A stretch of 64,000 nucleotides of DNA, from assembly GCA_020344755.1 (NCBI GenBank), contig CP070829.1, positions 130,454 through 194,453 of the forward strand, read 5' to 3'. Origin of the DNA: Gemmatimonadales bacterium (lineage in GTDB: Bacteria > Gemmatimonadota > Gemmatimonadetes > Longimicrobiales > Gaopeijiaceae). Within the stretch, counting starts at the first letter, position 1; the number at the start of each line of letters is the position of its first letter. The notes under the pieces were generated by a model that worked only from the letters and a program-made list of their open reading frames with translations, was not told the DNA's origin and did not search any database. Made by a program: the position numbers and the translations under genes. Of the stretch, positions 11,252-56,430 are shown piece by piece.

Positions 11252-11282
11252 GGCGAGTCTGGAGTTGAGGTGGAAACCCGAG

Positions 11283-11419: not shown

Positions 11420-11617
11420 GTGAATGCCCCTCGACCCCGATCGAGCCTGGCAGAGGAGCTCCAGGCCCTCTGGCGGTCTGCCACGGCGGACAACATCGGG
11501 CCGGCCCTCCGGGAGGCCCGGGAGCGGGTGGCGGCGGCCCCTCCTGCCGTCCAGGAGGAGGTGGCGGAGCTCATGGTGTCCCTGGAGCAGCTGGAGAGGT
11601 GGCTGCGGGACCTCTGA
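11420..11617 (+). CDS. Small hypothetical helical protein
   Basis: 65-aa ORF I do not recognise. From the GTG at 11420 (alternative GTG at 11405) it encodes a charged, Ala/Glu-rich sequence with heptad-like spacing, e.g. EELQALWRSA and VQEEVAELMVSLEQLERWL, which suggests a single helix or short coiled coil. It lies between a divergent promoter region and the phosphoglycerate mutase gene in the same direction. The codon pattern is similar to that of neighbouring genes, which supports but does not prove coding. Confidence 0.5.
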   Translation: MNAPRPRSSLAEELQALWRSATADNIGPALREARERVAAAPPAVQEEVAELMVSLEQLERWLRDL

Positions 11618-11735
11618 GGCGTGATTCCTCCGACTCCGAGGCCTTGGGGGAGTGCGGGGGGGCCGGCATATTGAGGGGCTCTCCGGGTCGGCCCGTCGCC
11701 CCGGCGAACCCATCCCCGTCATCCCCGCGCCGGAC

Positions 11736-12947
11736 ATGACTCGTCCCCTTCTTCCCGAATCCCAGGTGGACCCCCGAGGCGGCGGCTCCATCGTCCTCAT
11801 CGTCATGGACGGCCTGGGTGGCCTTCCCGATCCCGAGACTGGACGCACGGAGCTGGAGACTGCCCGGACCCCCAACCTGGATGGGCTCGCGGCCCGTTCC
11901 TCCCTGGGAATGCTCGTCCCCGTGGGGCCCGGGATCACACCGGGGAGCGGGCCCGGCCACCTGTCGCTCTTCGGGTATGACCCGTTGGAGTACGTCATCG
12001 GCCGGGGAGCGCTGAGTGCCCTTGGGGTCGGCATGGAGCTGGCGTCCGGAGACGTGGCGGCTCGCCTGAACCTGGCCACCTTCGACGATCAGGACCGGGT
12101 CACGGACCGACGGGCGGGGCGCCCGTCCGACGCGGAGGCCCGCCGCGTGGTGGAGAAGGTGCGGGGAGCCGTGGAGGCGCCGGAAGGGGTCCGCTTGACA
12201 CTGGTCCCCGAGAAGGAGCACCGCGTGGTCCTGCACATCCGTGGCGAGGGTCTCGGAGCGGACCTCACGGATACGGATCCGCTGGTCGAGGGCGAGCCGG
12301 CCCACCGGTGTGAGGCGACGGATCCGGGCTCCGAGTTCGCGGCGGAGCTCGTACGGAGCTTTCTGGCACAAGCCCGGAACGCGCTGGCGGACGAGCCGGC
12401 GCTCAACGGCTTCCTGGCTCGAGGCTTCGCGCGCTTCGAAGGAATTCCTTCCCAGGAGGAGCGGTTCGGGCTCCGGGGCGTGGCCATCGCCAAGTACCCC
12501 ATGTATCGGGGCGTGGCCCGACTGGTCGGGATGAACGTGGACGGCGTGCCCGGGAGCACGTCCGAGACGGTGGATCACCTGGAGGCGGCCTGGGGGAAGT
12601 ACGATCTCTACTTCCTGCACTTCAAGGACACGGACACCCGGGGGCACGACGGCGACTTCGCCGGAAAGGTGGCGGCCATCGAAGAGGTGGACCGCCTGAT
12701 TCCCCGTGTCCTGGACCTGGATCCGGAGGTGGTGATCGTCACCGGGGACCACTCCACGCCCACCCGCATGAAGGAGCATTCCTGGCACCCGGTCCCCACC
12801 TTGCTGGCCTCGCCCCTGGCGCGCCCCTCGGCAGCGGCCTTCGGGGAGGGGAGCTGCCGAGGTGGCGATCTGGGGACCTTTCACGGCACCCACCTGATTC
12901 CCCAAGCCCTGGCCCACGCCGGGCGCCTGGTGAAGTTCGGGGCGTGA
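11736..12947 (+). CDS. apgM: 2,3-bisphosphoglycerate-independent phosphoglycerate mutase, archaeal type
   Basis: 403-aa alkaline-phosphatase-superfamily enzyme converting 3- to 2-phosphoglycerate in glycolysis and gluconeogenesis. The metal-binding VMDGLGG motif lies near residue 25. The ApgM signature ITPGSGPGHLSLFGYDP follows near residue 70, and the second metal cluster is TGDHSTPTRMKEHSWHPVP. The ATG at 11736 is chosen since conserved sequence begins 20 residues later; an upstream start at 11652 would add 28 residues of low-complexity sequence. An AT-rich TATTGA at 11669 might be its -10 box. It overlaps the TPR gene start by 4 bp (GTGA). Confidence 0.9.
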   Translation: MTRPLLPESQVDPRGGGSIVLIVMDGLGGLPDPETGRTELETARTPNLDGLAARSSLGMLVPVGPGITPGSGPGHLSLFGYDPLEYVIGRGALSALGVGMELASGDVAARLNLATFDDQDRVTDRRAGRPSDAEARRVVEKVRGAVEAPEGVRLTLVPEKEHRVVLHIRGEGLGADLTDTDPLVEGEPAHRCEATDPGSEFAAELVRSFLAQARNALADEPALNGFLARGFARFEGIPSQEERFGLRGVAIAKYPMYRGVARLVGMNVDGVPGSTSETVDHLEAAWGKYDLYFLHFKDTDTRGHDGDFAGKVAAIEEVDRLIPRVLDLDPEVVIVTGDHSTPTRMKEHSWHPVPTLLASPLARPSAAAFGEGSCRGGDLGTFHGTHLIPQALAHAGRLVKFGA

Positions 12948-13798
12948 CCGAGCCGGGGCAGGGTCTCGAGCATCTTCTCGTCCAGGCTCGGGAGCTCGGA
13001 GCGGAGGGGGATTTCGCCGGTATGGCCGAGAAGCTCCGGGGGGAGCTGGACGCCTATCCGGATGACCCTGCGCTGCTCTGTTGGCTGGGCGTCGCGGAGC
13101 GGGAGCTGGGGTTGGAGGGGGTGGCGTACGAGCGGTTCAAGCAGGCCCTGGCCCTGGACCCGGAGGACCCCTACATCCTCGCCACCGCGGGAAACGCCCT
13201 GGCCCACTTCGACGACCCGGACGCCGAGGTCGCCCTTCGGGCGGCGTCGGTCATGGCTCCGGACCTCCCGCTGACCCGGTGGATGTACGGGGCCTTCCTC
13301 TCCAGGGAGGGCTTCGTCGCCGAGGCACGCAGGGAGCTGGACGAGGCCAAGGCCATGAGCCCCGACGACGCCACCGTCGCCTATGAGTCCGGAGTCGCGT
13401 ACGCCCTGGCCGGAGACCTGGCGTCCGCCGTGGACGAGTTCGCGCGGGCGTTGGATCTCGCCCCGGACGAGAGCTGGTCTCGGGTGGTGCTGGGGCTGGC
13501 CCTGGTCGAGGACGACAGGTTGGAGGAGGGCGAGGTCGAGCTGGACCTCGCGGCCCGCCAACGATCGGACGACGTGGAAGCCCAACTGGTGGCGGGCCTC
13601 GCCGCCTGCGCGAGCGGAAGGGAGGAGGACGCGTGGGAGTTCCTCGAGCGCGCACGGTTCGGTGCCCAGGGTACGGACCTGCTCACGATCGAGGCCGTGG
13701 AGGAGCGGATCGAAGACGGGCCGGACGCGGCTGGTCGCTTCCTTCGGCACACCCTGGCCCCCGTGGTGTTCAGAGAGCGGTTGCAGGCCCGGCCCTGA
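12944..13798 (+). CDS. Tetratricopeptide repeat protein
   Basis: 284-aa cytoplasmic protein built largely of TPR units. Helix pairs are visible as LCWLGVAERELGLEGVAYER.. followed by ALALDPEDPYI and then AYALAGDLASAVDEFARALDLAPDE. It has no signal peptide or catalytic motif, so a scaffold or adaptor role is inferred. The GTG start overlaps the stop of apgM, indicating translational coupling. The M16 peptidase pair follows within 50 bp. Confidence 0.82.
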   Translation: MTEPGQGLEHLLVQARELGAEGDFAGMAEKLRGELDAYPDDPALLCWLGVAERELGLEGVAYERFKQALALDPEDPYILATAGNALAHFDDPDAEVALRAASVMAPDLPLTRWMYGAFLSREGFVAEARRELDEAKAMSPDDATVAYESGVAYALAGDLASAVDEFARALDLAPDESWSRVVLGLALVEDDRLEEGEVELDLAARQRSDDVEAQLVAGLAACASGREEDAWEFLERARFGAQGTDLLTIEAVEERIEDGPDAAGRFLRHTLAPVVFRERLQARP

Positions 13799-13845
13799 CC
13801 GGACCCCAGTGGACCTTCGACCTCCGGAACGGGGAGGCAGACGGC

Positions 13846-15123
13846 GTGTCGCGAATCGATTTCACCTTCCACCGACACACCCTGGAGAACGGACTTCGGG
13901 TCGTGGTGGCGCCGGACGCCTCCCGCCCCGTGGTGGCGGTGAACCTCTGGTACGGTGTGGGCTCCCGAAATGAGCGGAGAGGCCGGACGGGCTTCGCCCA
14001 TCTCTTCGAGCACATGATGTTCCAGGGCTCGGCGCACGTTCCCAAGAATCAGCACTTCGAGCTGGTGGAGCGGGCGGGTGGCTCCCTGAACGCATCGACC
14101 TGGTTCGATCGGACCAACTACTTCGAGACGCTCCCGTCGCACCACCTGGACCTCGCGCTGTGGCTCGAATCGGATCGGATGGGGTGGATGGTCCAGGCCA
14201 TGACCCAGGAGAAGCTGGACAACCAGCGCGACGTGGTGAAGAACGAGAAGCGGGAGCGCTACGACAACCGACCCTATGGGGATTGGCAGGAGAGACTCCA
14301 GCGGATGGTCTGGCCGGAGGATCACCCCTACCGCCACACCGTCATCGGATCCATGGAGGACCTGGATGCGGCGACTCTCGAGGACGTGGCGGATTTCTTC
14401 AACACCTTCTACGTCCCGAACAACGCGGTCCTGACGGTGGCGGGCGACGTGGACCCGGACGATGCCCTCCGCCGGGTGGAGCACTGGTTCGGCGAGATTC
14501 ACCGTGGAGCCGCGGTCCCGGAGCTTCCCGGCGACACGGCGGCGTCCATTCCCATGTCGGCGCCGGTGGTGGACGAGGTCGAGGCCGATGTTCCCCTGCC
14601 TCGTGTGATGATGGGGTTCCGGATTCCCGCCTACACCGATCCCGGGTTCGCGGCGCTGGAGGTGGCCGGGTCCGTCCTGGGGGCCGGTCGGGCATCCCGG
14701 CTCTACCGGAACCTGGTGCGAACCGGTGTAGCCAGGGATGCGTTCAGCTACCCGTTTCCCCTGGTGAGCGGTGCGTCCATCCTCCTGGTGGGCGTGACGG
14801 GGTTTCCGGAGTCGGATCCCGGGGAGCTCGCGGAAGCGGTCCGCCACCAGCTCCGGGGGCTCGTGCAGGTGGAGGAGAGCGAGGTGGCCCGGGGACTGGC
14901 CCTGGAGGAAGCCAGGCTGGTGCGGGCGCTGGAGGGGCTGGGCGAGAGGGCCGACCGGATCTCCATGAGCACCATGCTCTTCGATCGGCCGGAGCGGATT
15001 ACCGAGGAGCTGGAGGACCTTCGGGCCGTGTCACTGGCCGACGTCCACGACGCCGCGGACCGATTCCTGGCCACGGAGAATCACGCCACGCTCCTGTACC
15101 GACCCAACGAGGCAACGGCATGA
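13846..15123 (+). CDS. M16-family zinc peptidase, catalytic subunit
   Basis: 425-aa M16 (pitrilysin/PqqL-like) peptidase. The inverted zinc motif HxxEH is seen as FAHLFEHMMF near residue 50, and the distal glutamate ligand lies in DVVKNEKRERYDN about 75 residues on. The GTG start at 13846 is preceded by GGGGAGG at 13831-13837, a good ribosome binding site, and leads directly into the family's N-terminal HTLENGLRVVV strand. No clear signal peptide. Its stop overlaps the start of a second M16 gene (ATGA), the usual arrangement for a heterodimeric M16 enzyme. Confidence 0.9.
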   Translation: MSRIDFTFHRHTLENGLRVVVAPDASRPVVAVNLWYGVGSRNERRGRTGFAHLFEHMMFQGSAHVPKNQHFELVERAGGSLNASTWFDRTNYFETLPSHHLDLALWLESDRMGWMVQAMTQEKLDNQRDVVKNEKRERYDNRPYGDWQERLQRMVWPEDHPYRHTVIGSMEDLDAATLEDVADFFNTFYVPNNAVLTVAGDVDPDDALRRVEHWFGEIHRGAAVPELPGDTAASIPMSAPVVDEVEADVPLPRVMMGFRIPAYTDPGFAALEVAGSVLGAGRASRLYRNLVRTGVARDAFSYPFPLVSGASILLVGVTGFPESDPGELAEAVRHQLRGLVQVEESEVARGLALEEARLVRALEGLGERADRISMSTMLFDRPERITEELEDLRAVSLADVHDAADRFLATENHATLLYRPNEATA

Positions 15124-33194: not shown

Positions 33195-35471
33195 GTGACC
33201 TCCATCTCCCGTGCATTCCCCCGCCTGACGGCTGGGCTTCTTCCGGCATTGTGCGTGTTCTCCCTCCCCTTGGGGGCGCAGGACGCCGGGGGCGTGCCTA
33301 CCGGCGCAGCGATTCGTGCCGAGGCACCGGTGCAGGTGGACGGCCGCCTGGACGAGGCGGCCTGGAGCCAGGCGCCGGCGCTGGCCGGATTCATCCAGTC
33401 CGAACCCTTCGAGGGGGACCCGGTGACCGAGGAGACCGTGGTCCGTGTCCTCTATGACGACGATGCCGTGTACGTGGGTGCGTGGCTCCTGGACACCGAC
33501 GTGGAGGGACTGGTGTTCGGCGAGACCCGCCGGGACGCCGCCATGGAGGAGACGGACGCGATCCTCTTCGTGCTGGATACCTACCTGGACCGGCAGAACG
33601 GCTACGTCTTCGGGACCACGCCGGCGGGGATCGAGTACGACGGCCAGGTCACCCGGGAGGGGCAGGGGGGCTTCGGAGGTGCCCGGATGATGGCCGGGTC
33701 CATGTCCGGGGTGAACACGAACTGGGATGGTTCCTGGGAGGTGGCGACCCACCGGGATGGGGCCGGGTGGTACGCCGAGTTCCGGATTCCCTTTTCCACC
33801 CTCCGGTACGACCGGGGTGGGGAGCAGCGGTGGGGCTTCAACGTGGTGCGGCGCATCCGGCGGAAGAACGAGGAGGCCTTCTGGTCGCCCGTGCCCCGCC
33901 AGTTCGACCTGTACCGCATCTCCATGGCCGGAACCCTGGAAGGCATCGAGGCGCCCTTCCGTCGGACCGCGCAGGTGACACCGTACGTCCTCGGCTCGAG
34001 CCGATGGGCGTACCTGGACGCCGACGGCGAAGCCTTTCTGGACGGGGCCTCGGAGCGGACCGGCGACTTCGAAGTGGGAGGAGACGCGAAGTTCGCCCTG
34101 AGCCCGTCCCTGACCCTGGATGCCACCGTCAACACCGACTTCGCCCAGGTAGAGGTGGACGATCAGCAGGTGAACCTGACGCGGTTCCGGCTGTTCTTTC
34201 CCGAGAAGCGGCCCTTCTTCCTGGAGAACGCCGGCACCTTCTCGGTGGGTACACCCCAATCCGTGGAGCTCTTCTTCTCCCGGCGCATCGGCATCGAGAG
34301 CGGCTCCGAGGTGCCCATCCTCGGGGGAGGGCGCCTCACCGGACGGGTGGCGGGTCTCAACGTGGGGCTCCTGAACATCCAGACCAAGGAAGTGGAGGGA
34401 GTGGCCCCGGCCAACAACTTCTCCGCGGTCCGCACCTTCCGGGAATGGGAGAACCGGACCCGCCTGGGAGGCACCTTCGTCTCCCGGCTGAACACCCAGG
34501 ACGGCGACGACTACAACCTCACGTACGGGCTCGACGGGCGGTTGGGGATCGGGGAGTCCCTGACCCTGGACGGATACGCGGCCTTCACCGACACGCCTGC
34601 GGACGCCGAGACCCCCGAGGACCGGACCGGTGAGTATGCACTCTCCCTGAGCGCCGAGTACACCAGCCGGGACTGGGAGGGGGGGCTGGCCGTCCGGGAG
34701 GTGGGCGAGGGCTTCAACCCCGAGGTGGGATTCCTCGACCGGGGTGCGTACCGGGTCTACTCGGTCCGGCTCCTGCGGAAGTACCGCTTCGAGGGGGCAG
34801 AGTGGTTCCGGGAGCTGCGGCCCCACGTTTCCCACCGGGAATTCCGGGACCTGGACGGGTTCATCGAGACACGCCTGATCCACGTGGATTCCCACTTCGA
34901 GTTCTCCAACGGGGCCTTCTTCCAGCTCCCCGCCATCAACTTCACCCGGGAGGGTCTGAAGGACGACTTCGAGATCGCCGAGGGGATCGTGGTGCCCGCC
35001 GGGACGTACGACAACGTGGAGTGGGGATTCCGCTACAACACGGACCGGAGCGCTACCCTCTCACTCGAGGGGCGCATCACGATCGGGGGCTTCTACTCCG
35101 GGAACCGAGCCGGATCCGACGCGACCCTGAACGTCCGCCTCGGGGAGACCTTCGTCACGGGTCTCCGGGTGGACTACAACGACGTGAACCTGCCCGAGGG
35201 CGACTTCGCCACCCGGCTGGTGGGCCTGAAGACGGCGTATTCCTTCACCCCGCGCATCTACCTTCAATCCCTGCTGCAGTACAACGATCGAACCGACACC
35301 TTCAGCGCCAACCTCCGTTTCGGGTGGCTGAATACGGCAGGAACCGGACTCTTCATCGTCTACAACGACCTGCGGAACACCGAGACCTTCGACCGGGTTG
35401 GCATCCCGCGGGGCCCGCTGGACCGGACCCTGATCCTGAAGTTCACGCGGCAGTTCAACCTGGGAGGGTAG
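33195..35471 (+). CDS. DUF5916 outer-membrane-type protein with CBM9-like N-terminus
   Basis: 758-aa exported protein. A signal peptide covers residues 1-31 (LTAGLLPALCVFSLPLGAQ). Residues about 40-230 form the CBM9-like domain of this family (VDGRLDEAAWSQAPALAGF, DTYLDRQNGYVFGTTPAG, EFRIPFSTLRY). The rest is DUF5916, rich in alternating strands with DATVNTDFAQVEVDDQQVN and LFFPEKRPFFLENAGTFS, and it ends in a phenylalanine-containing strand as expected for an outer-membrane barrel. The GTG start gives the signal peptide. Its last 56 bp, including the stop, are duplicated 1497 bp downstream. The ligand is unknown; carbohydrate binding is suggested by the domain only. Confidence 0.85.
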   Translation: MTSISRAFPRLTAGLLPALCVFSLPLGAQDAGGVPTGAAIRAEAPVQVDGRLDEAAWSQAPALAGFIQSEPFEGDPVTEETVVRVLYDDDAVYVGAWLLDTDVEGLVFGETRRDAAMEETDAILFVLDTYLDRQNGYVFGTTPAGIEYDGQVTREGQGGFGGARMMAGSMSGVNTNWDGSWEVATHRDGAGWYAEFRIPFSTLRYDRGGEQRWGFNVVRRIRRKNEEAFWSPVPRQFDLYRISMAGTLEGIEAPFRRTAQVTPYVLGSSRWAYLDADGEAFLDGASERTGDFEVGGDAKFALSPSLTLDATVNTDFAQVEVDDQQVNLTRFRLFFPEKRPFFLENAGTFSVGTPQSVELFFSRRIGIESGSEVPILGGGRLTGRVAGLNVGLLNIQTKEVEGVAPANNFSAVRTFREWENRTRLGGTFVSRLNTQDGDDYNLTYGLDGRLGIGESLTLDGYAAFTDTPADAETPEDRTGEYALSLSAEYTSRDWEGGLAVREVGEGFNPEVGFLDRGAYRVYSVRLLRKYRFEGAEWFRELRPHVSHREFRDLDGFIETRLIHVDSHFEFSNGAFFQLPAINFTREGLKDDFEIAEGIVVPAGTYDNVEWGFRYNTDRSATLSLEGRITIGGFYSGNRAGSDATLNVRLGETFVTGLRVDYNDVNLPEGDFATRLVGLKTAYSFTPRIYLQSLLQYNDRTDTFSANLRFGWLNTAGTGLFIVYNDLRNTETFDRVGIPRGPLDRTLILKFTRQFNLGG

Positions 35472-35475
35472 CCCG
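35420..35475 (+). repeat. 56-bp direct repeat, upstream copy
   Basis: This copy covers the last 17 codons of the DUF5916 gene, its TAG stop and 4 bp beyond. It matches 36917-36972 at 55 of 56 positions (G35453 versus A36950). The two copies lie 1497 bp apart, a multiple of three. The repeat also carries the GGGAGGG ribosome-binding sequence used by the next gene. Confidence 0.95.
35462..35468 (+). promoter_or_regulatory. Ribosome binding site supporting an ATC start
   Basis: GGGAGGG is separated by exactly 7 nt from the ATC codon at 35476 that begins the NAD-binding protein's conserved N-terminus. It lies inside the DUF5916 coding end and inside the 56-bp repeat. No ATG, GTG or TTG exists in this frame between the preceding in-frame stop (35437-35439) and the GTG at 35560, which is inside the Rossmann fold. 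Confidence 0.55.
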
Positions 35476-36930
35476 ATCCACGTACTGGTTACCGGCGCCA
35501 CCGGCTACATCGGCGGGCGCCTCGTCCCGCGGCTCCTGGCGGCGGGCCACCAGGTCCGGGTGCTGGTCCGGGACGTGGACCGGCTCGCGGACCGTCCCTG
35601 GACCGACCAGGTGGAGAAGGTGGAGGGGAACGTGCTGGATCCCGGCGTGATGCAGCGCGCCCTGCGGGGGATCGACGCGGCGTACTACCTGATCCACTCC
35701 ATGTGCTCAGGGCCCGACTTCGCACGGCGGGACCGGGAAGCGGCGCGGTCCTTCGCCGAGGAGGCCGGGCACCTCAAGCAGGTGATCTATCTGGGGGGGA
35801 TCCTACCGGACGAGACGACGGTGCGGAACTCGAAGCATCTCCGCTCCCGGGCGGAGGTGGGGGAGATCCTCCGGGAGCGACTCCCCACCACCGAGTTCCG
35901 GGCCGGACCCATCATCGGATCCGGGTCCGCCTCCTTCGAGATGGTGCGCTACCTCACGGAAAGGCTCCCGGCCATGGTGGCACCCCGCTGGATCGAGCAC
36001 GAGGTGCAGCCCATCGCGGTGCGGCACGTCCTGGACTACCTGGTGGCGGTCCTGGGCCGGGAGGACGCGGTGGGGGTCATCGACATCGGGGGCGAGGTCC
36101 TGACCTTCAAGGAGATGATGCTCGGGTACGCCCGGGTGCGCGGTCTGCCCCGGGTCATCATTCCCGTCCCCGTGCTGGCACCGGGGCTGGCCGCCCTCTG
36201 GGTCGGGCTCGTCACCCCGATTCCCAACTGCCTGGCGGTTCCCCTGGTGCGGGGGATGGTGCGGCCCGTCGTCGGGGACCTGACCCGGGCCCGAGCGCTC
36301 TTCCCGGAGATCCATCCCATGGGCTACCAGGAGGCCGTGGAGCTGGCGCTGGACCGGACCCGGGAGGAGAGCGTGATGACCCGGTGGAGCGATGCCGTGG
36401 GCCGGGACGAGACCTTCGAGTTCGAGGACCGGGAAGGCCTGGCCCGGGAGGTGCGCACGCGGCTGGTGGACGCCCCGTCAGAGGCGGTCTTCAAGGCCTT
36501 CACCTCTCTGGGCGGGGACCGGGGCTGGCTGGTCTGGAACTGGGCCTGGAAGGCCCGAGGTCTTCTGGACCAGGTGGTGGGCGGGCCCGGGCTGCGCCGC
36601 GGGCGCAGGGACCCGGCCGAGCTGCGGCGGGGCGACGCCGTGGACTTCTGGCGGGTAGAAGAGATCCAGGAGCCCCGGCTCCTCCGGTTGCGGGCGGAGA
36701 TGAAGCTACCCGGGCGGGCCTGGCTCCAGTTCGAGGCGGAGCCGGAGGACGGGAAGACCCGGCTGGTCCAGGCGGCCCTCTTCGCGCCCCGGGGTTTCCT
36801 CGGTTGGCTCTACTGGTACAGCGTCTACCCGTTCCACCGCCTGATCTTCGACCATCTCATCGACGGCGTGGCGGAGCTGGCGCGGGAGATCACCGAGGCG
36901 GAGCAGGGCGACCCCCGGACCGGACCCTGA
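35476..36930 (+). CDS. NAD(P)-binding epimerase-like protein with DUF2867 domain, apparent ATC start
   Basis: 484-aa protein if translation starts at ATC. Residues 1-300 are an atypical short-chain dehydrogenase/NmrA-like domain: HVLVTGATGYIGGRLVPRLL with the GxxGxxG motif at residues 7-13, then DAAYYLIHSM and FRAGPIIGSGSASFEMVRYL. The last 150 residues are DUF2867/SRPBCC-like (EVRTRLVDAPSEAVFKAF, LFAPRGFLGWLYWYSVYPFH). The first standard start (GTG at 35560) would remove the cofactor motif. Its final codons (..RTGP) and stop lie in the downstream copy of the 56-bp repeat, so both gene ends abut the repeat. It may be an inserted or rearranged gene. Function beyond cofactor binding is unknown. 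Confidence 0.78.
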   Translation: MHVLVTGATGYIGGRLVPRLLAAGHQVRVLVRDVDRLADRPWTDQVEKVEGNVLDPGVMQRALRGIDAAYYLIHSMCSGPDFARRDREAARSFAEEAGHLKQVIYLGGILPDETTVRNSKHLRSRAEVGEILRERLPTTEFRAGPIIGSGSASFEMVRYLTERLPAMVAPRWIEHEVQPIAVRHVLDYLVAVLGREDAVGVIDIGGEVLTFKEMMLGYARVRGLPRVIIPVPVLAPGLAALWVGLVTPIPNCLAVPLVRGMVRPVVGDLTRARALFPEIHPMGYQEAVELALDRTREESVMTRWSDAVGRDETFEFEDREGLAREVRTRLVDAPSEAVFKAFTSLGGDRGWLVWNWAWKARGLLDQVVGGPGLRRGRRDPAELRRGDAVDFWRVEEIQEPRLLRLRAEMKLPGRAWLQFEAEPEDGKTRLVQAALFAPRGFLGWLYWYSVYPFHRLIFDHLIDGVAELAREITEAEQGDPRTGP

Positions 36931-46026: not shown

Positions 46027-46347
46027 ATGAACACTGACGAAGAAGTCCTGGCTACCGCCGCGGCGTGGCGAGCCTCCGGTATGGAGGTGGCCCTGGCGAC
46101 CGTGGTCCGGACCTGGGGATCCGCGCCGCGGCCGGCCGGAAGCCACATGGCGGTGAATGGCTCCGGCGATTTCTGTGGCTCCGTTTCCGGGGGGTGCGTG
46201 GAGACCGCGGTGGTGGACGCCGCCCTGGAGGTGATCCAATCCGGAGAGGGTCGGCAGCTGAGCTTCGGGGTGACCGACGAGATGGCCTGGGAGGTGGGGC
46301 TCGCGTGCGGGGGAAAGGTGGCCATCTGGGTGGAGCGAGTCGGATGA
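46027..46347 (+). CDS. XdhC/CoxI N-terminal domain protein
   Basis: 106-aa protein equal to the N-terminal domain of XdhC-family molybdoenzyme maturation factors: LATVVRTWGSAPRPAGSHMAV and CGSVSGGCVETAVVDAA are diagnostic, and GLACGGKVAIWVE closes the domain. In XdhC the Cys-containing motifs take part in sulfuration and insertion of the molybdenum cofactor. The frame is open to 45505 but the ATG at 46027 matches family starts. The domain's partner is the next gene, overlapping by 4 bp: a single XdhC split in two. First gene of the cox locus. Confidence 0.88.
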   Translation: MNTDEEVLATAAAWRASGMEVALATVVRTWGSAPRPAGSHMAVNGSGDFCGSVSGGCVETAVVDAALEVIQSGEGRQLSFGVTDEMAWEVGLACGGKVAIWVERVG

Positions 46348-47066
46348 GGGACGACTTCCTCCACCGGCTGCTCCGTGCGCTGGAGGAAGGGCGGCCCGTG
46401 GTGACCGCCACGCTGCTCCCGGAGGGGTCGCAGGCGCTCATCCTTCCCCTGGAGCCGGACGCAGGCGAAGGCGCTCCGGGGTGGGATCCGGTGGAGGGGG
46501 GCAGTCTCCTGGACGAGGCACGGAAAGCCCTCCTGGAGGACCGTTCGGCGTCCATCACGTCCGAGGTGGGGACGGTCTTCCTCCGGCCCTACAACCCCCC
46601 GGTGCGGTTGGTGGTGGTGGGGGCCGTGCACATCACTGCGCCGCTCGCGCAGATGGCGGGTGCCGCCGGGATCGAGGTGCACGTGGTGGACCCCCGCACC
46701 GCCTTCGCCACGGCGGAGCGTTTCCCCGGTGTGCACGTCCTGGATCGCTGGCCGGCGGAGGCTCTGGAAGAACTACAGCCGGACCATCGGACGGCGGTCG
46801 TGACGCTGACCCACGACGCAAAGCTCGACGACCCGGCACTCCGGGCGGCGCTGGCCTCACCGGCGTTCTATGTGGGGGCGCTCGGGAGCACCCGGACCCA
46901 CGCGAAGCGCGTGAAGCGCCTCCGTGAGGACGGGGTGTCGGAGGAGGACATCGGTCGCATCCGCGCCCCCGTGGGAGTGGACATCGGAGCCCGGACCCCC
47001 GCCGAGATCGCGGTCGCCATCCTCGCGGAGCTGGTGGCACATCTCCGCCGTGCGGAGGCCTCGTGA
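46344..47066 (+). CDS. XdhC/CoxI C-terminal (Rossmann) domain protein
   Basis: 240-aa second half of a split XdhC. The Rossmann region is VRLVVVGAVHITAPLAQMA, then VVDPRTAFATAERFP, HDAKLDDPALRAAL and YVGALGSTRTHAKR. The closing IRAPVGVDIGARTPAEIAVAILAELV is the most conserved XdhC signature. The first 85 residues resemble the middle region of XdhC. GAVHIT replaces the GGGHVA-type loop common in the family. Both ends overlap neighbours by 4 bp, so it is tightly coupled in the maturation set of the cox locus. Confidence 0.88.
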   Translation: MRDDFLHRLLRALEEGRPVVTATLLPEGSQALILPLEPDAGEGAPGWDPVEGGSLLDEARKALLEDRSASITSEVGTVFLRPYNPPVRLVVVGAVHITAPLAQMAGAAGIEVHVVDPRTAFATAERFPGVHVLDRWPAEALEELQPDHRTAVVTLTHDAKLDDPALRAALASPAFYVGALGSTRTHAKRVKRLREDGVSEEDIGRIRAPVGVDIGARTPAEIAVAILAELVAHLRRAEAS

Positions 47067-48688
47067 AGTTCGGCCCCTTCGCACCCGCCCAGGTGGAGGG
47101 CGGCATTCTCGCCCACTCCCTTCGTCTTCCAGACGGCGCACTTCTGCGGAAGGGAATTCGTCTGGGTCCGGAGGAGGTCGCTCGCCTGGAGGCGGCCGGA
47201 GTGGAGACCGTCACCGTCGCGCTCCTGGAGGCGTCGGACGTTCCCGAGGACGATGCCGCCCGAAAGGTGGCGCAGGCCCTCGCGGGACCGGGTACGAAAG
47301 CACGCGGCGCCCGCACCGGTCGGTGTAACCTGGTCGCCACGGAAGCGGGAGTCGTCACGGTGGACGTCGCCACGGTTCGACGGGTGAACGAGGTCCACGA
47401 GGCCGTGACGGTGTCCACCCTCCTCCCGGAGGCCCCCGTACGCCCCGGGGAACTGGTGGCCACCGTGAAAGTGATTCCCTATGCGGTTCCCGGCGACGTG
47501 GTGGACACGTGTGCGGCCGCTGCCTGCGAAGCCGGAGCAGCCCTACGCGTCGAGCCCTTCGGCCGTCCCCGGGCAGTCCTGGTCCAGACCGTCGGTCCGG
47601 GATCGTCGGACGCCGTGGTCCATCGATCCGAGGCCGTCCTCCGCCACCGAATGGAGGCGCTGGGTGGTTCTCTGACCACGATGCCGACGGTTCCCCACGC
47701 CCCCGAGGAGATCCGGCGAGCCCTGGGGGAGGCGCTGGCAGTGGGCCCGGACCTGGTGCTCGTGCTCGGTGCTTCCGCGGTGGGAGATCGCCACGATGTG
47801 GTCCCCGCGGCGGTGCGCCGAGCCGGGGGGCGGGTCCTGCGGCTGGGGATCCCGGTGGACCCGGGCAACCTGACGCTCCTGGCCGAGTGCGGTGGGACCC
47901 CGGTCCTCGGTGTCCCCGGGTGCGCCCGGTCCCCCCGCCGCAACGGGTTCGACTGGATTCTCGAGCGGGTGGTCGCCGGGAGATCCCTGGAGGAACTGGA
48001 CGTTCCAGGGCTGGGCATCGGGGGGCTGCTGAAGGAGACGCCTCAACGGCCGGAGCCACGGCGGCGGCCGGTGGAGGCCCGGAAGCCTCGACTCCGCGTG
48101 GCTGGGGTGATCCTCGCCGCGGGACGTTCCACTCGTATGGGACCGGTCAACAAGCTCTTGGCCGACGTGGGGGGCGAGCCCATGGTCCGGAGGGTCACGC
48201 GCACGGTGCTGGGGGTCACCGCGGAGCCGGTGGTCGTGGTCCTGGGCCACGAAGGCGCCGCGGTGAAGGAGGCCCTGGAAGGACTCGACGTGGAGTTCGT
48301 GGAGAATCCGGACCACGGCCTCGGGATGGCCACGTCGGTGGCAGCCGGCATCGAGGCCGTCTCGGGACGGGCCGACGGCGCCATGATCGTCCTGGGGGAC
48401 ATGCCGTGGATCGGCGAGGGCGACCTGCGGGCTCTGCTCGCCGCCTTCGCTCCGGACGAGGGAAGGGGGATCTGCGCTCCCGTGGTGGATCGGAAGCGCG
48501 GCAATCCCATCGTGTGGGCCGCCAGGTACTTCCCGGACCTCCGAGCCCTTGAAGGGGACGTGGGAGGGCGCCACCTCCTCTCCCTCTACGACGACGACGT
48601 TTGCGAGGTGGCGGTGGGGAGCGAAGGAGTCCTGAGGGACGTGGACACCCCCGAGGCCCTGGACCGCGCACCTTCGAAGGAGACCTGA
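47063..48688 (+). CDS. Fusion of MoeA-like molybdopterin-binding region and MobA/MocA-like nucleotidyltransferase
   Basis: 541-aa fusion protein. Residues 1-340 form a molybdopterin-binding region of the MoeA/MogA type (VVTVDVATVRRVNEVHEAVTVS, PDLVLVLGASAVGDRHDVVPAAV). Residues 350-541 are a MobA-like NTP transferase with the nucleotide motif GVILAAGRSTRMGPVNKLL and a metal Asp in VLGDMPWI. Family members attach CMP to molybdopterin, giving the MCD cofactor used by CO dehydrogenases and related hydroxylases. The GTG start overlaps the XdhC stop. Molybdate insertion by the N-terminal part is inferred from family resemblance. Confidence 0.85.
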   Translation: MKFGPFAPAQVEGGILAHSLRLPDGALLRKGIRLGPEEVARLEAAGVETVTVALLEASDVPEDDAARKVAQALAGPGTKARGARTGRCNLVATEAGVVTVDVATVRRVNEVHEAVTVSTLLPEAPVRPGELVATVKVIPYAVPGDVVDTCAAAACEAGAALRVEPFGRPRAVLVQTVGPGSSDAVVHRSEAVLRHRMEALGGSLTTMPTVPHAPEEIRRALGEALAVGPDLVLVLGASAVGDRHDVVPAAVRRAGGRVLRLGIPVDPGNLTLLAECGGTPVLGVPGCARSPRRNGFDWILERVVAGRSLEELDVPGLGIGGLLKETPQRPEPRRRPVEARKPRLRVAGVILAAGRSTRMGPVNKLLADVGGEPMVRRVTRTVLGVTAEPVVVVLGHEGAAVKEALEGLDVEFVENPDHGLGMATSVAAGIEAVSGRADGAMIVLGDMPWIGEGDLRALLAAFAPDEGRGICAPVVDRKRGNPIVWAARYFPDLRALEGDVGGRHLLSLYDDDVCEVAVGSEGVLRDVDTPEALDRAPSKET

Positions 48689-48693
48689 TCCCC

Positions 48694-49572
48694 GTGTTCG
48701 AAAGCATCGACGCCACCCGTGCGGCCCTCGAGCGGGAGGGGTACTTCACCGACCCGGGCCTGGCCACCAGCCTCTTCCTCTCGCTGCGCATGCAGAAGGC
48801 CCTCTTCCTGGAGGGCGAGCCCGGGGTGGGAAAGACCGAGGTCGCCCGGGTTCTCTCCAGGGTGCTGGACGTTCCTCTGATTCGGCTCCAGTGCTACGAG
48901 GGCTTGGACATCAACCACGCGGTGTACGAGTGGAACTATCCGCGACAGCTCATCGCCATCCAGGCCCGGGCCGGTGGGCACGAGGGAGACGTCGCCGACA
49001 TCTTCTCCGAGGAGTATCTCCTTCGCCGGCCCCTCCTCCAGGCCATCGACCGGAGCCACGAGCGCGCGCCCGTCCTGCTCATCGACGAGCTCGACCGCGC
49101 CGACGAAGAGTTCGAGTCGTTCCTCCTGGAACTCCTGGGAGATTTCCAGATCACGATTCCCGAACTGGGGACCTTCCGGGCCGACCACCCGCCCGTGACC
49201 GTGATCACCTCCAACCGCACCCGGGAGATCCACGACGCCCTCAAGCGTCGATGCATCTACCACTGGATCGATTACCCCTCGCCGGAGCAGGAGCTCAAGA
49301 TCGTCCTGGGGAAGGTGCCCGAGGCCCCGGAGGCCCTGGCTCGTCAGGTGGTGGCGTTCGTGCAGCGTCTCCGCCGGGAGGAGCTGTACAAGCTGCCGGG
49401 TGTGGCCGAGTCCCTGGACTGGGCACGGGCACTCACTCACCTGTCCACGGAGGACCTGGACGAGGAAGTGGTGGATCGGACGTTGGGCCTCCTCCTCAAG
49501 TATCAGGACGACGTGGACCTGGTGCGGGGTCGGCGGGCCGCGGAAGTCCTGGCCGAGATCGAATCTCGGTGA
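48694..49572 (+). CDS. coxD: MoxR-type AAA ATPase, CO dehydrogenase maturation factor CoxD
   Basis: 292-aa MoxR-family AAA+ ATPase. Walker A is GEPGVGKTEV (Lys47), Walker B VLLIDELDRADEEFES, sensor 1 VITSNRTREIHDALKRRC. In Oligotropha CoxD acts in sulfuration and copper insertion at the CO dehydrogenase active site; the gene's place directly before coxE and the structural genes supports the same role here. The GTG at 48694 has AAGGAG 11 nt upstream, a long spacing, but conserved sequence begins close after it. Its stop overlaps coxE. Confidence 0.9.
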   Translation: MFESIDATRAALEREGYFTDPGLATSLFLSLRMQKALFLEGEPGVGKTEVARVLSRVLDVPLIRLQCYEGLDINHAVYEWNYPRQLIAIQARAGGHEGDVADIFSEEYLLRRPLLQAIDRSHERAPVLLIDELDRADEEFESFLLELLGDFQITIPELGTFRADHPPVTVITSNRTREIHDALKRRCIYHWIDYPSPEQELKIVLGKVPEAPEALARQVVAFVQRLRREELYKLPGVAESLDWARALTHLSTEDLDEEVVDRTLGLLLKYQDDVDLVRGRRAAEVLAEIESR

Positions 49573-50789
49573 GCGGTCTCCGATTCATCGAGAACCTGGT
49601 CGGTTTCGGGCGCGCCCTGCGAACCGTGGGAATTCCGGTGACACCATCCCAGGTGGGTGAGCTGACCCAGGCGCTGTCCTGGGTGGAGCTGGGGGACCGG
49701 GCCGAAGTCTTTCGGACGGCGCGGGCCATCCTGGTGAAGCGACGGGAGGACCTGCTCCTGTTCGAAACGGTGTTCAACACCTATTGGCGTCACCCCGACA
49801 TCCCGGTGCCTCAGGCTCGAGCCCGCCCACCGGCTCCCCGAGACCCGCCCCGGCGGTCCGCCTTCACCGTGGCTACCTACGCCGCGTTCAAGGCTCGGGC
49901 GGAGATGGAGGAGCGTGACGTGGCGGACCGGGCCGGCACCTACAGCGACGAGGAGCGCCTCCAGCGGAAACGGTTCGCCGAGATGACTCCCGAGGAGCTG
50001 GACGCTGCCCGCCGCATGTTGGCCCGGTTCCGGTGGGAGGCGAGCGTTCGCGTGACCCGCCGGTATTCAAGCGATCCAACGGGTGCGTCGGTCGACCTCC
50101 GCCGTGTGCTGCGCCACGCGGGCCGGCTGGGGGCGGTACCCGCGTACCTCCCACGCCGGAGCCGGGCGGAGAAGCAGCGGCCCGTGGTGCTTCTGGCCGA
50201 CGTGAGCGGGTCCATGGAACGGTACTCGAAGCTGGTGCTCCACTTCTTCCACTCCCTGGTTCGGTCCATGACGGACGTGGAGACCTTCGTCTTCGGCACC
50301 CGTCTCTCGCGGATCACTCCGCACCTCCGCCTCCGAAACGTGGACCGGGCCCTGGCTCAGGCCGGCCGCGAGGTGGTGGATTGGGCCGGTGGGACGCGAA
50401 TCGGGGCCTGCGTGGGAGAGTTCAACCGGACGTGGAGCCGCCGCGTGCTTCGCCGTGGGGCCGTGGTGGTGGTGGTGAGCGACGGTTGCGACCGCGGCGA
50501 CCCGTCGGTGCTGGCCCGGGAGATGCGGTACCTGAAGCACCGGTGCCACCGGCTCGTGTGGCTCAATCCCCACTCGGGACACGAGGAGTACGCACCTCGG
50601 GTTGCGGGAATGGCTGCGGCCCTGCCATTTGTAGATAATTTCCTCCCTGCCCGGGACATCCAGTCCCTGCGCGAATTCGGCGAGGTGCTCAAGCGAGTTC
50701 GCGCGTCCGGAAGGGGGATCGGCCCCAGGCGGCTCGGCGAGACGCGGCCGCCTGGGATTCGTGTCCCTGTCGGCAGTGGAAACGCGTGA
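49569..50789 (+). CDS. coxE: vWA-domain protein CoxE
   Basis: 406-aa CoxE-family protein. The N-terminal half is helical (ENLVGFGRALRTVGIPVTPSQ is typical). The C-terminal half is a von Willebrand A domain with intact MIDAS residues: DVSGSM, then T in GGTRIG and D in VVSDGCDRGD. MoxR-type ATPases and vWA proteins such as CoxE act as paired metal-centre chaperones; in Oligotropha CoxE is needed for copper in the Mo-Cu site. The GTG start overlaps the coxD stop. No signal peptide. Confidence 0.92.
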   Translation: MSGLRFIENLVGFGRALRTVGIPVTPSQVGELTQALSWVELGDRAEVFRTARAILVKRREDLLLFETVFNTYWRHPDIPVPQARARPPAPRDPPRRSAFTVATYAAFKARAEMEERDVADRAGTYSDEERLQRKRFAEMTPEELDAARRMLARFRWEASVRVTRRYSSDPTGASVDLRRVLRHAGRLGAVPAYLPRRSRAEKQRPVVLLADVSGSMERYSKLVLHFFHSLVRSMTDVETFVFGTRLSRITPHLRLRNVDRALAQAGREVVDWAGGTRIGACVGEFNRTWSRRVLRRGAVVVVVSDGCDRGDPSVLAREMRYLKHRCHRLVWLNPHSGHEEYAPRVAGMAAALPFVDNFLPARDIQSLREFGEVLKRVRASGRGIGPRRLGETRPPGIRVPVGSGNA

Positions 50790-50810: not shown

Positions 50811-51437
50811 ATGAAGGTCGGTGGCGACTACACATTCGACGGCCCCCAGCAGCTCGTCTGGGATACCTTTCTCGATCCCGAGGTGCTGGCCGGCGTCCTA
50901 CCGGGCTGCGAGAAGCTGGAGCTGGTGGGAGAGAACGAGTACGAGGGAGCGCTCAAGATCAAGATCGGGCCCGTCCAGGGTCAGTTCCTGGGAAAGGTCA
51001 AGCTCGAGGACATACAGCCGCCCGACGCCTACACCATGCAGGTCGATGGCCGCGGGGCCCCGGGCTTCGTCAAAGCGACGGGTCACCTGAAGCTCCAGCC
51101 TTCAGGAGATCAAACCTTGGTGACGTATGAGGGCGACGCACAGGTAGGTGGACGCCTGGCCAGCGTGGGGCAGCGGCTCGTGGAGAGCTCCGCCAAGGCC
51201 ATCATCAAGCAGAGCCTGGACGGCCTCAACGCCGCGGTGAAGGCCCGCAGCGCGGCGGCGGAGGCCGGTGAAGATGCGCCCGCCCCCACCCCGGTGGCGG
51301 CCCCGTCGCAGGCGGAGTTCGCTGCGACCGTGGCCAAGGAGGTCGCGAAGGATCTGCTGCCTACCTGGGCGCGGTACGGGCTCTTCGCCCTGGTGGTGCT
51401 GGTGATCCTCTACGTGGTGTTTTCGGTCCTGACCTAG
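50811..51437 (+). CDS. coxG: CoxG, SRPBCC-fold membrane-anchoring protein
   Basis: 208-aa CO dehydrogenase subunit G family protein. Residues 1-145 form the SRPBCC (Bet v1-like) domain: DGPQQLVWDTFLDPEVLAGVLPGCEKLE, YEGALKIKIGPVQGQF and TLVTYEGDAQVGGRLASVGQRL. After an Ala/Pro-rich linker a C-terminal membrane helix (YGLFALVVLVILYVVFSVL) follows. CoxG homologues tether CO dehydrogenase to the membrane and deliver quinone. It lies 21 bp after coxE and 86 bp before coxM. Confidence 0.92.
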   Translation: MKVGGDYTFDGPQQLVWDTFLDPEVLAGVLPGCEKLELVGENEYEGALKIKIGPVQGQFLGKVKLEDIQPPDAYTMQVDGRGAPGFVKATGHLKLQPSGDQTLVTYEGDAQVGGRLASVGQRLVESSAKAIIKQSLDGLNAAVKARSAAAEAGEDAPAPTPVAAPSQAEFAATVAKEVAKDLLPTWARYGLFALVVLVILYVVFSVLT

Positions 51438-51523: not shown

Positions 51524-52399
51524 GTGATTCCCGGTGAATTCGAGTACCACGCTCCGTCCAATCTGGACGAGGCAGTGGCTCTCCTGGAGCGCTTCGGCGA
51601 CGACGCCAAGGTCCTCGCAGGGGGGCACAGCCTGGTTCCTGCCATGCGCTTCAGGCTGGCGCTCCCGGAGCACCTGGTGGACCTCAACCGTATCGACGGG
51701 CTCGCCTACATTCGCGAGGAAGGGGGCCATCTGGCTCTCGGTTCCATGACCCGGGAGGCCGACCTGGAGCACTCGTCCTTGGTGGCCGAACGGTACCCGC
51801 TCCTGGCCGACGCGGGGCGGGTCATTGCCGACCCTCTCGTCCGCAACCGCGGTACGGTGGGCGGAAACCTGGCCCACGCGGATCCGGCCAACGACCACCC
51901 GGCAGTCGTCCTCGCCTACGGCGCCACCCTGGTAGCCCATGGGTCCGGCGGCCGTCGAGAGATCCACGCGGACGACTTCTTCGTGGGCCTGTTCGAGAGC
52001 GCGCTCCAACCCAACGAGATCCTGGTGGAGATCCGCATTCCGTCTCCCGGCCCGGGCTCGGGTGGGGCGTACGAGAAGTTCGAGCGCAAGGTGGGCGACT
52101 ACGCCATCTCTGCCGTGGCGGTGCAGCTCACCATGAGCGGGAGCACCTGCACGTCGGCGCGGATCGGACTCACCAACGTGAGCCCGGTTCCCATGCGAGC
52201 CACGAATGCCGAGGCGGTCCTGGCGGGAAGCGGGGTGACCGAGGACGTCGTGGAGGCCGCTGGGCAGGCGGCCGCCGCCGAGTGTGACCCGTCCGCCGAC
52301 CTGCGAGGCTCGGAAGATTACAAGCGCGATGTCACCCGGGTGCTGGTGAAGCGGGCCATCCGGAGAGCCGTGCAAAGGGCACAGGGAGGTGCCGCATGA
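51524..52399 (+). CDS. coxM: CO dehydrogenase medium (FAD) subunit CoxM
   Basis: 291-aa FAD-binding subunit that passes electrons from the iron-sulfur clusters to the acceptor. The FAD motifs are [14 protein letters not shown] near residue 32 and [15 protein letters not shown] near 107. The C-terminal domain has the usual [15 protein letters not shown] segment. The GTG start at 51524 has AAGGAGGT ending 3 nt upstream. Its stop overlaps coxS by 4 bp. The order M-S-L is the standard one for form I operons. Confidence 0.94.
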
Positions 52400-52890
52400 G
52401 CAAGCACAACATTACCGTCACCGTGAACGGGGAGGCCGTGACCAAGGAAGTCGACGGGCGCACGCTTCTCGTCCACTTCATCCGGGAGGAGCTGGCCCTC
52501 ACCGGGACGCACATTGGGTGCGACACCACGAGCTGCGGCGCTTGCACGGTCCACCTGGACGGTACCGCCGTGAAGAGCTGCACCGTGTTCGCCGTCCAGG
52601 CCGACGGGTACGCCGTGGACACGGTGGAGGGGCTGGCCGAAGGGGCCGATCTCCACCCGCTGCAGGAGGGCTTCTGGGAGAAGCACGGCCTCCAGTGCGG
52701 GTATTGCACGCCGGGAATGATGATGGCGGCGAAAGAGCTCCTGGCCCGCAACCCCGACCCGACGGAAGAGGAGATTCGCTGGGGCATCTCGGGCAACCTC
52801 TGCCGATGCACCGGCTACAACAAGATCGTGGAGGCCATCCAGTACGCGGCCGAGAAGATGCGGGAGTCCCGTGAGGAGGCGTCGGTATGA
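52396..52890 (+). CDS. coxS: CO dehydrogenase small (2Fe-2S) subunit CoxS
   Basis: 164-aa iron-sulfur subunit with two [2Fe-2S] clusters. The plant-type cluster ligands are [16 protein letters not shown] with a later Cys (VKSC). The second cluster is [11 protein letters not shown] and [11 protein letters not shown]. All eight cysteines are present. ATG and stop overlap the adjacent subunit genes by 4 bp on both sides, consistent with equimolar synthesis. Confidence 0.95.
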
Positions 52891-55322
52891 GCCAGTTGGA
52901 AGATCGCGTCCAGCATATGCAGCCCGTTCCCGAGGGAAGCTCCGCCCAGGTGGAGACCACCGATGAGGTGCGGGTCACGACGCCCGAGAAGATCTGCGGC
53001 ATGGGCCACCGGATGAAGCGGAAGGAGGATGCCCGCTTCATTCGCGGAAAGGGCAACTACGTGGACGACGTCAAGCTCCCCGGGATGCTCTACATGGACA
53101 TCGTCCGGAGTCCCTACGCCCACGCGAAGATCCTGAACATCGACGCCAGCGAGGCCCTGGAGATGCCGGGAGTGTTGGCGGTCATCACCGGCAAGGACCT
53201 CGAGGCCGCAGGGAACCTCCACTGGATGCCGACGCTCATGTCGGACACCCAGATGGTCCTGCCCATCGACAAGGTGGTGTACTTCGCCCAGGAGGTGTGC
53301 GCCGTCGTTGCGACGGACCGCTACATCGCCGCCGATGCGGTGGAAAAGGTCTACGTGGACTACGAGCCGCTTCCGGCGGTGGTGGATCCGTTCGAGGCCA
53401 TGAAGGACACGGTGATCGTCCGGGACGACAAGGAGAACAAGACCAACCACATCTGGCACTGGGAGGCCGGCGACAAGGAGGCCACGGACCAGGTCTTCGC
53501 CGAGGCGGCCACGGTGGTGAAGGAGAAGATGCACATCCCCCGCATCCACGTGGCGTCCATCGAGACGTGCGGGATGGTGGCGAACTACAATCCCGCCACC
53601 GGGAAGATGCAGCTCTACATGACCACCCAGGCGCCCCACGCCATCCGGACCGTGTTCGCGCTGGTGAGTGGCCTGCCGGAGCAGAAGATCCAGGTCATCT
53701 CCCCGGACATCGGCGGGGGATTCGGCGGAAAGGTGCCCGTGTATCCGGGATACGTGATCTGCGCCGTGGCCAGCCTGGTCACCGGCAAGCCGGTGAAGTG
53801 GATCGAGGACCGGAGTGAGAACCTCCAGGCCGATTCCTTCGCCCGGGACTACCACATCGAGGCCGAGATGGCCGCCGATGCGGACGGGAAGATCACCGGG
53901 CTCCGGGTGAAGACGCTGGCGGACCACGGCGCCGCGGATGCGGCGGCCAACCCGTCCCGGTTCCCGGCCGGGCTGTACAGCATCTGCACCGGCTCGTACG
54001 ACATGAAGGCGGCCCACGTGGCCGTGGACGGGGTCTACACCACGAAGCCGCCCGGAGGGGTGGCGTACCGTTGCTCCTTCCGGGTCACCGAAGCGGTCCA
54101 CATGGTGGAGCGCATGGCCGACATCCTGGCCCATGAGCTGGGCGAAGATCCGGCGGACTTCCGGATGAAGAACTTCATCCAGCCGGAACAGTTCCCCTAC
54201 AAGTCGCCCACGGCGTGGGAGTACGACTCCGGGAACTATCCCGCGGCGCTCGAGAAGGCCATGGACATGATCGACTACCGGGCGCTGCGGCAGGAGCAGG
54301 CCGAGAAGCGCGCCCGGGGAGAGTTCATGGGAATCGGCATCTCCAGCTTCACCGAGGTAGTGGGCGCCGGGAATTCCCGGGACTTCGATATCCTGGGCAT
54401 CAAGATGTTCGATTCGGCGGAGATCCGGATTCACCCCACGGGCAAGGCCATCGCCCGCTTCGGGACCAAGTCCCAGGGGCAGGGTCACGAGACGACCTAC
54501 GCCCAGATCGTCGCCGAGGAGCTGGGCATCCCGGCCCAGGACGTGGAGGTCGAAGAGGGGGACACGGACACCGCCCCGTATGGCCTGGGCACGTATGCGA
54601 GCCGCTCCACCCCCACCGCCGGCGCGGCCGCGGCCATGGCGTCGCGGAAGATCAAGGCCAAGGCACGCAAGATTGCCGCGTACCTCCTGGAGGTGGGGGA
54701 GGACGACCTGGAGTGGAACGTGGACCGCTGGCAGGTCAAGGGGTCCCCGGATCAGCACAAGACCATCCAGGACATCGCCTTTGCGGCCTACACCAACCAT
54801 CCCCACGGCATGGAGGCCGGCCTGGAGGCCACCGACTACTACGATCCCCCGAACATGACCTTCCCCTTCGGCAGCTACATCGCCGTGGTGGACATCGACA
54901 AGGGAACCGGGAACGTGACGGTCCGGAGGTTCGTGGCAGTGGATGACTGCGGCCACATCATCAATCCGATGGTGGTGGAGGGGCAGGTCGAGGGTGGGCT
55001 CACCCAGGGCCTGGCTCCGGCTTTGTACGAGGAGATCGTCTACGACGAGAACGGGCAGAACCTGTCCGGGACCTTCGCCGACTACCTCCTGCCCACGGCC
55101 GTGGAGTCGCCCAAGTGGGAGACGGGCCACACCATCACCCCGTCGCCCCATCACCCATTGGGTGCGAAGGGCGTGGGAGAGTCGCCCACGGTGGGAGCAC
55201 CGCCGGCTATCGCCAATGCGGTGGTGGACGCCCTGTGGCATCTGGGCGTGCGGCACATCGACATCCCCATCACGCCCGAGCGGGTCTGGAAGGTCATGCG
55301 GGAGGCGGGCGTCACCGACTGA
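52887..55322 (+). CDS. coxL: Form I aerobic CO dehydrogenase large subunit CoxL
   Basis: 811-aa molybdenum subunit that oxidises CO to CO2 at a Mo-S-Cu site. The active-site loop is VAYRCSFR with the copper-binding Cys396. This is the form I signature; form II and xanthine dehydrogenases have AYRGAGR or other loops. The catalytic base is Glu765 in [12 protein letters not shown]. Molybdopterin-contact segments such as GGGFGGK and [11 protein letters not shown] are present. Length matches known CoxL (about 800 aa). The ATG overlaps the coxS stop; a strong terminator follows 46 bp after the gene. Confidence 0.96.
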
Positions 55323-55449: not shown

Positions 55450-56430
55450 ATGTTCGATGAGTTCTTCCTGACGGCCAGCGAGCTGAGGGGCGCGGGGGTT
55501 CCCTTCGCCACCGCCGTGGTGGTGCGGGCGGAACGACCGACGTCGGGCAAGCCCGGGGACCGGGCCATCGTCACCCTGGACGGCACCATGCACGGTTGGA
55601 TCGGGGGGAGCTGTGCCCAGCCCACGGTGGTGCAGGAGGCGGTGCGGGCCATCGCCGATGGAACCCCCCGCCTCATCCGCCTGTCTCCCGAGCCGGGGAC
55701 TCGACCAGTCCCCGAGGGGATCGAGGAAGTCCCCATGACGTGCTTCAGTGGAGGAACCCTGGACATCTTCATCGAGCCCCACGCGCCCGAGCCCCACCTC
55801 CTGGTCGTGGGCAGCCTTCCCGTCGCCCAGGCGCTGGCGCACCTGGGGAAAGCCATGAGCTATCGAGTGACCGCGGTGGACCCCGGCGATGGGGATGCCA
55901 TGTCCCATGCGGACACGGTCCTGCGGGATCCCGCCGAGATCGCCTCTGTGGCGACCCCGATGACCTTCGCGGTCGTGGCCACCCACGGCGACTTCGACGA
56001 GCCCGCCCTGAAGGCGATCCTGGGCACGGCGGTGCCGTACGTGGGCCTCGTGGCGAGCCGGGCCCGGGGTGCAGCGGTCCTGGAGCACCTGATCAGGGAC
56101 GGCGTGGCCCAGGAGGTGGTGGATCGGGTCCGCTTCCCCGCCGGGCTGGACATTCACGCCCAGCGCGGGGACGAGATCGCCGTCTCCATCCTGGCGGAGA
56201 TCGTGCAGACCCGCCGGACCATGGGGGAGGTGTCGTGGGAGGGGGAGGAGTCGGAGGCCGCGGCGCCGACGGAGCCGGAGACGGCCATCGATCCCGTCTG
56301 CCACATGACGGTGAAGGTGGAGGGAGCGCTCCACACCCACGAGCACGCCGGCACGGTGTACTACTTCTGCTGTGGAGGTTGCCGGAGCCGGTTCGCCGAG
56401 GACCCGGACCCGTACCTCGCCGCCGGGTAG
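55450..56430 (+). CDS. XdhC/CoxF-type maturation factor fused to a YHS domain
   Basis: 326-aa protein. Residues 1-265 are a complete XdhC-family protein: VVVRAERPTSGKPGDRAIV, WIGGSCAQPTVV, the Rossmann part LLVVGSLPVAQALAHLG, YVGLVASRARGAAVLEHL and FPAGLDIHAQRGDEIAVSIL. Residues 280-326 are a YHS/TRASH-like domain, DPVCHMTVKVEG to VYYFCCGGCRSRFAEDP, with four Cys and several His. YHS domains often occur in copper and other heavy-metal proteins. Next to a Mo-Cu enzyme this suggests a role in metal insertion, which is inference. The ATG at 55450 follows the coxL terminator by 55 bp. Confidence 0.88.
   Translation: MFDEFFLTASELRGAGVPFATAVVVRAERPTSGKPGDRAIVTLDGTMHGWIGGSCAQPTVVQEAVRAIADGTPRLIRLSPEPGTRPVPEGIEEVPMTCFSGGTLDIFIEPHAPEPHLLVVGSLPVAQALAHLGKAMSYRVTAVDPGDGDAMSHADTVLRDPAEIASVATPMTFAVVATHGDFDEPALKAILGTAVPYVGLVASRARGAAVLEHLIRDGVAQEVVDRVRFPAGLDIHAQRGDEIAVSILAEIVQTRRTMGEVSWEGEESEAAAPTEPETAIDPVCHMTVKVEGALHTHEHAGTVYYFCCGGCRSRFAEDPDPYLAAG

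Follow-up and report, generated by a model that had tools for sequence, protein, structure and literature searches.

A YHS domain at the C-terminus of the copper-insertion factor CoxF: a candidate Cu(I)-carrying module in the cox cluster of a Gemmatimonadales bacterium

A 64,000-nucleotide stretch of a Gemmatimonadales genome (GenBank assembly GCA_020344755.1, contig CP070829.1, positions 130,454 to 194,453; the window in what follows) contains a gene cluster for form I carbon monoxide dehydrogenase (CODH), and behind the large-subunit gene coxL lies coxF (55450..56430, + strand), which encodes a 326-residue protein with a C-terminal YHS domain. The assignment draws on the translated open reading frame (ORF), Pfam, a tree and family scores. 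Three domains, all on the + strand and above their Pfam cut-offs, make up the protein: XdhC_CoxI (residues 14-77, 55489..55680; 60.8 bits), the XdhC_C Rossmann domain (residues 117-251, 55798..56202; 98.8 bits) and YHS (residues 280-323, 56287..56418; 39.3 bits against a cut-off of 30.3). Possession of XdhC_CoxI and XdhC_C in one polypeptide places it in the CoxF/XdhC family, and Cys55, within the GGSC of the XdhC_CoxI domain, is invariant (alignment A3). A weaker match is to TRASH_HVO_1752_C, and the YHS match is the only one in the whole 4.1 Mb genome. The Pfam domains, together with a form I coxL whose stop lies 127 bp upstream of the coxF start, confirm the description in an earlier note on this DNA of a full XdhC protein joined to a YHS domain in the gene after coxL. 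The architecture is not a product of chance, since 160 distinct CoxF proteins, spread over many phyla, share it.

The cluster runs, all on the + strand, in the order moeA/mobA-like, coxD, coxE, coxG, coxM, coxS, coxL and coxF. The coxL product (52887..55322) has the AYRCSFR loop, conforming to the AYxCSFR of form I, and scores 1223.6 bits against TIGR02416 (cut-off 991). The genes for the 2Fe-2S subunit (coxS, 52396..52890) and the FAD subunit (coxM, 51524..52399) were recognized by colinear homologs, and coxG (50811..51437) by Pfam COXG. A VWA_CoxE protein (Pfam VWA_CoxE) is encoded by coxE (49569..50789), whose start is probably a GTG overlapping the coxD stop, and an AAA ATPase (Pfam AAA_5) by coxD (48601..49572), whose true start may be downstream. 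Hence coxF is co-encoded with form I coxMSL and coxDE, as befits CoxF. The MoeA-like and MobA-like fusion (47063..48688; Pfam MoCF_biosynth and NTP_transf_3) adjoins a separate CoxI/XdhC without YHS (46027..47066; Pfam XdhC_CoxI and XdhC_C), which is split into two genes (46027-46347 and 46344-47066) with an ATGA overlap and one XdhC domain each. The coxD and coxE genes of some Gemmatimonadota lie 5-13 kb apart, with genes that look unrelated between them (loci L216, at 1400-14600, L036, L045 and L062); ORFs in these gaps, read by eye with no family scan, included nothing obviously copper-related and one SdhB-like ORF.

The identity of the window gene follows from comparison with the system for which genetics are available. 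A tblastn search against plasmids gave a single matching gene in pHCG3 of Oligotropha (Afipia) carboxidovorans, at 34840-35682; the gene order (coxM, S, L, D, E, F, G) and the product length of 280 residues identify it as coxF and not coxI. A 144-row tree restricted to the XdhC core (CoxI as root), built quickly with LG+G4 and the Shimodaira-Hasegawa-like approximate likelihood ratio test (SH-aLRT) and therefore moderately reliable, unites the window protein, O. carboxidovorans CoxF and all domain-bearing proteins in one clade (SH-aLRT 98). CoxI and the XdhC of xanthine dehydrogenase (XDH), which share both XdhC domains with the window protein, fall outside it. Family scores likewise group the window protein with CoxF and place it far below the XdhC equivalog cut-offs (TIGR02964, 38.1 bits against 161.6). 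On this sequence evidence the window gene is almost certainly an ortholog of O. carboxidovorans coxF. The CoxF of strain OM5 (pHCG3, WP_013913733) has the same XdhC core, belongs to the same clade and fills the same place beside coxMSL and coxDE. However, it lacks YHS, its tail stopping at the point from which the window protein continues into its linker.

The copper-insertion role of the CoxF family is already established. CODH from an O. carboxidovorans coxF insertion mutant contains, per enzyme, 1.85 Mo (normal), 1.40 sulfane sulfur and 0.043 Cu, and its activity is regained in vitro after chemical treatment with sulfide and Cu(I) (Pelzmann et al., 2014, PMC4240915). For the window protein as a whole, the copper role rests on the genetics of this ortholog. 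The same study proposed for O. carboxidovorans CoxF an RGD motif (CoxE binding), a phytase-like RHGxRxP and MCPSHGTM (PMC4240915). Within the family, RGD occurs in 16/110 YHS-type and 8/31 domain-less CoxF, RHGxR in 1/110 and 3/31, and MCxSxG in 0/110 and 11/31, respectively. These motifs were consequently rejected as a general CoxF mechanism, not being conserved in the family, and the older model should be reconsidered on this point.

The association of the fusion with form I CODH was surveyed in three samples: 200 Gemmatimonadota genomes; 80 named loci from different phyla, together with annotated plasmids; and whole-genome sets of named Pseudomonadota, Actinomycetota, Bacteroidota, Chloroflexota, Acidobacteriota and Deinococcota. 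All favour CoxF, having been collected by similarity to CoxF-YHS. Among the Gemmatimonadota, CoxF is found in 36 genomes, form I CoxL over the cut-off in 28 and both in 27 (Fisher p ~1e-24, not corrected for relatedness). The contig of the single genome with CoxL and no CoxF ends at coxE; two of the nine CoxF-only genomes hold partial CoxL pieces, and contig ends truncate several of the clusters. Another of the nine, G119, has a decayed CoxF (L064) that is missing both the GGSC cysteine and YHS, and no form I CoxL was found in that genome. In the pooled first set, all 120 domain-bearing fusions (113 with YHS and 7 with an HMA domain) are CoxF-type, versus none of the 40 other XdhC. Where a CoxL loop could be read near CoxF, it is form I at 88 loci and form II only at one (L102), a cluster whose own coxL falls outside the contig; the form I loop is present at 0/17 other XdhC loci. 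In the Pseudomonadota sample, where other XdhC are numerous, the seed genome alone gave a match to the fusion over its full length. The fusions therefore accompany form I CoxL rather than other hydroxylases, a co-occurrence that the earlier note had proposed to survey, and the pattern it named as contrary, fusions mainly beside copper-free xanthine dehydrogenases, did not appear.

The C-terminal domain of CoxF is not uniform. Among 204 distinct CoxF proteins, 160 carry YHS, 7 HMA and 33 neither, and 4 are truncated. The seven HMA-type proteins come from Rhodothermia (loci L128, L259, L260, L261, L263, L264 and L306), where HMA occupies the same position as YHS, with an MSCxHC motif and Pfam HMA scores of 35-44 bits; form I CoxL is present at 6/6 of these loci with enough flank. 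In NCBIfam the HMA tails score best against models of the copper chaperone CopZ and of copper-ion binding, without reaching the cut-offs, and among solved structures nearly all of their nearest relatives are copper ATPases and CopZ. There is precedent for such an exchange of unrelated copper-binding folds, as archaeal CopM uses TRASH where CopZ uses HMA (PMC7830388). CopZ and CopM, in which HMA and TRASH serve interchangeably as copper carriers, are stand-alone proteins, whereas the tails are fused to CoxF. A CopZ-like HMA in place of YHS suggests that the add-on domain hands over copper.

The domain labels (YHS, HMA or none) require 5 changes on the XdhC-core tree, versus ~49 when shuffled. 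In the simplest reading, whose direction depends on the CoxI root, YHS would have been present early in CoxF, lost in alphaproteobacteria, mycobacteria and Nonomuraea, and exchanged in Rhodothermia. In alphaproteobacteria and mycobacteria whose CoxF lacks YHS, the fetched flanks of the cox clusters showed no stand-alone YHS gene. Some YHS-less CoxF of mycobacteria and an acidobacterium (L145, L147 and L340) have short Cys/His-rich tails (EDACHGHG, HHCDAHGH and SSSSCCRDSD). The Caldarchaeum genome of L163 has a small stand-alone YHS ORF of 77 residues (G1021:C114:2505-2651), and a CoxF-like XdhC without YHS beside coxDE.

The presumed ligand pattern of the window YHS is D281-x2-C284 followed by F306-C307-C308-x2-C311, that is, the aspartate and three cysteines of such a site with C308 as an extra cysteine. 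The D-x2-C ... FCxxxC pattern and the Pfam family are shared with the YHS/TRASH domains of copper P-type ATPases and of the Mycobacterium phlei adenylyl cyclase; here, however, the domain has a metallocluster-assembly factor as its fusion partner instead of a transporter or a cyclase. In the five genomes examined, the other YHS matches are P-type ATPases with a CPC motif, and the one that was scanned scores over the copper-ATPase cut-off. C311 is conserved in 160/160 YHS-bearing CoxF, and C284 and C307 each in 142/160; the latter two are lost together, as expected of two ligands of one metal. The AlphaFold2 model of the window CoxF (29 sequences) has a mean predicted local distance difference test score of 92.8 and is least certain in the linker (~261-280); that of the YHS domain alone reaches 89.7. 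The predicted core matches a Mycobacterium XdhC homologue (PDB 2we8, Z 20.0 over residues 2-257). Searches with the full model are dominated by the Rossmann part, and the YHS domain alone gives modest matches to toluene/o-xylene monooxygenase (Z 6.3) and ribosomal L24e (~4), which are consistent with the assignment, not strong.

The reading that we consider probable is that CoxF carries Cu(I) on its YHS module and from there supplies copper to apo-CoxL that is already sulfurated. We infer this role from the co-occurrence with form I CoxL, from the conserved cysteines, from the exchange for HMA and from studies of other YHS/TRASH proteins, among them the YHS of the M. phlei adenylyl cyclase, which mediates a copper-specific response (PMC4626032). 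The XdhC-type core of CoxF would dock on folded apo-CoxL already carrying Mo and sulfur. In the YHS domain, tethered by a flexible linker of ~20 residues, C284, C307 and C311 would coordinate a single Cu(I), with D281 and C308 close by; from this donor site the ion would move to Mo-SH and to the loop cysteine of CoxL. Where HMA stands in for YHS, the tethered HMA would carry the Cu(I) instead. The earlier note had pictured copper delivery to the Mo-Cu enzyme coupled to the handling of its molybdenum cofactor (Moco). Copper delivery is well supported by CoxF orthology, genetics, the tracking of form I and the HMA swap, and in the sense of a CoxF function was already known; the coupling to cofactor delivery is not supported, as the coxF mutant enzyme retains Mo and sulfane sulfur. 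A main role as Moco carrier was rejected on the same published result.

Several observations weigh against a copper-carrying YHS. Alphaproteobacterial CoxF, the one with genetics, has no YHS, nor do the mycobacterial isolates seen, and YHS is therefore not indispensable everywhere. Likewise, 18 YHS domains of the Thermus/Deinococcus group (L345, L347-L362 and L174) are without both C284 and C307 and keep C308 and C311 as CxxC, so the full site is not essential everywhere. Finally, the YHS of toluene-4-hydroxylase has no metal bound in the crystal (PMC4626032). The CxxC-only domains of the Thermus/Deinococcus group may have a changed or different metal site.

Could YHS instead sense copper? As a sensor or gate, it would switch CoxF on, while a site within the XdhC core, or a different carrier, would supply the copper that is inserted. 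The M. phlei cyclase, in which YHS is a copper-responsive regulatory module (PMC4626032), offers a model, and YHS-less CoxF still serves in alphaproteobacteria. We nevertheless regard this as unlikely, because the CopZ-like replacement fits cargo transfer better; moreover, no separate YHS protein was seen in YHS-less loci, where other carriers were not searched for. Somewhat less likely still is a structural zinc or protein-docking module that places CoxF on CoxL, CoxE or CoxD with no copper role. The ribosomal L24e and monooxygenase YHS among the fold relatives, and the persistence of the Thermus/Deinococcus domains despite partial loss of the site, would suit such a module, but an unrelated copper-binding fold, HMA, stands at the same place and the cysteines are conserved in all lineages besides Thermus/Deinococcus. 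A persulfide relay to Mo through the YHS cysteines, suggested by the Cys-rich site, is very improbable given that CODH of the coxF mutant retains its sulfane sulfur and has almost no copper (PMC4240915), and given an HMA replacement that fits copper.

CoxF and its copper role are already known, and what is new relative to the searchable open literature is CoxF bearing YHS or HMA: neither such a protein nor YHS in any XdhC or CODH was found in open-access sources, most subscription journals lying outside the coverage. Beyond the copper-carrying YHS itself, we give about even chances to a broader view of CoxF as a modular copper donor, a dedicated Mo-Cu metallochaperone in which an XdhC docking core is combined with exchangeable Cu(I) modules, the ancestral YHS and, in Rhodothermia, a CopZ-like HMA. 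The laboratory model would then be a derived form that lost the module and gets its copper another way. O. carboxidovorans appears as an atypical model organism, the phytase and RGD features of its CoxF not being family-wide. Microbes of soil and ocean oxidize CO by means of form I CODH. For the copper supply of this enzyme, the candidate carrying site that emerges from the comparison is a small domain, separable from the rest and marked by three named cysteines, with an alternative HMA version whose copper chemistry is well known.
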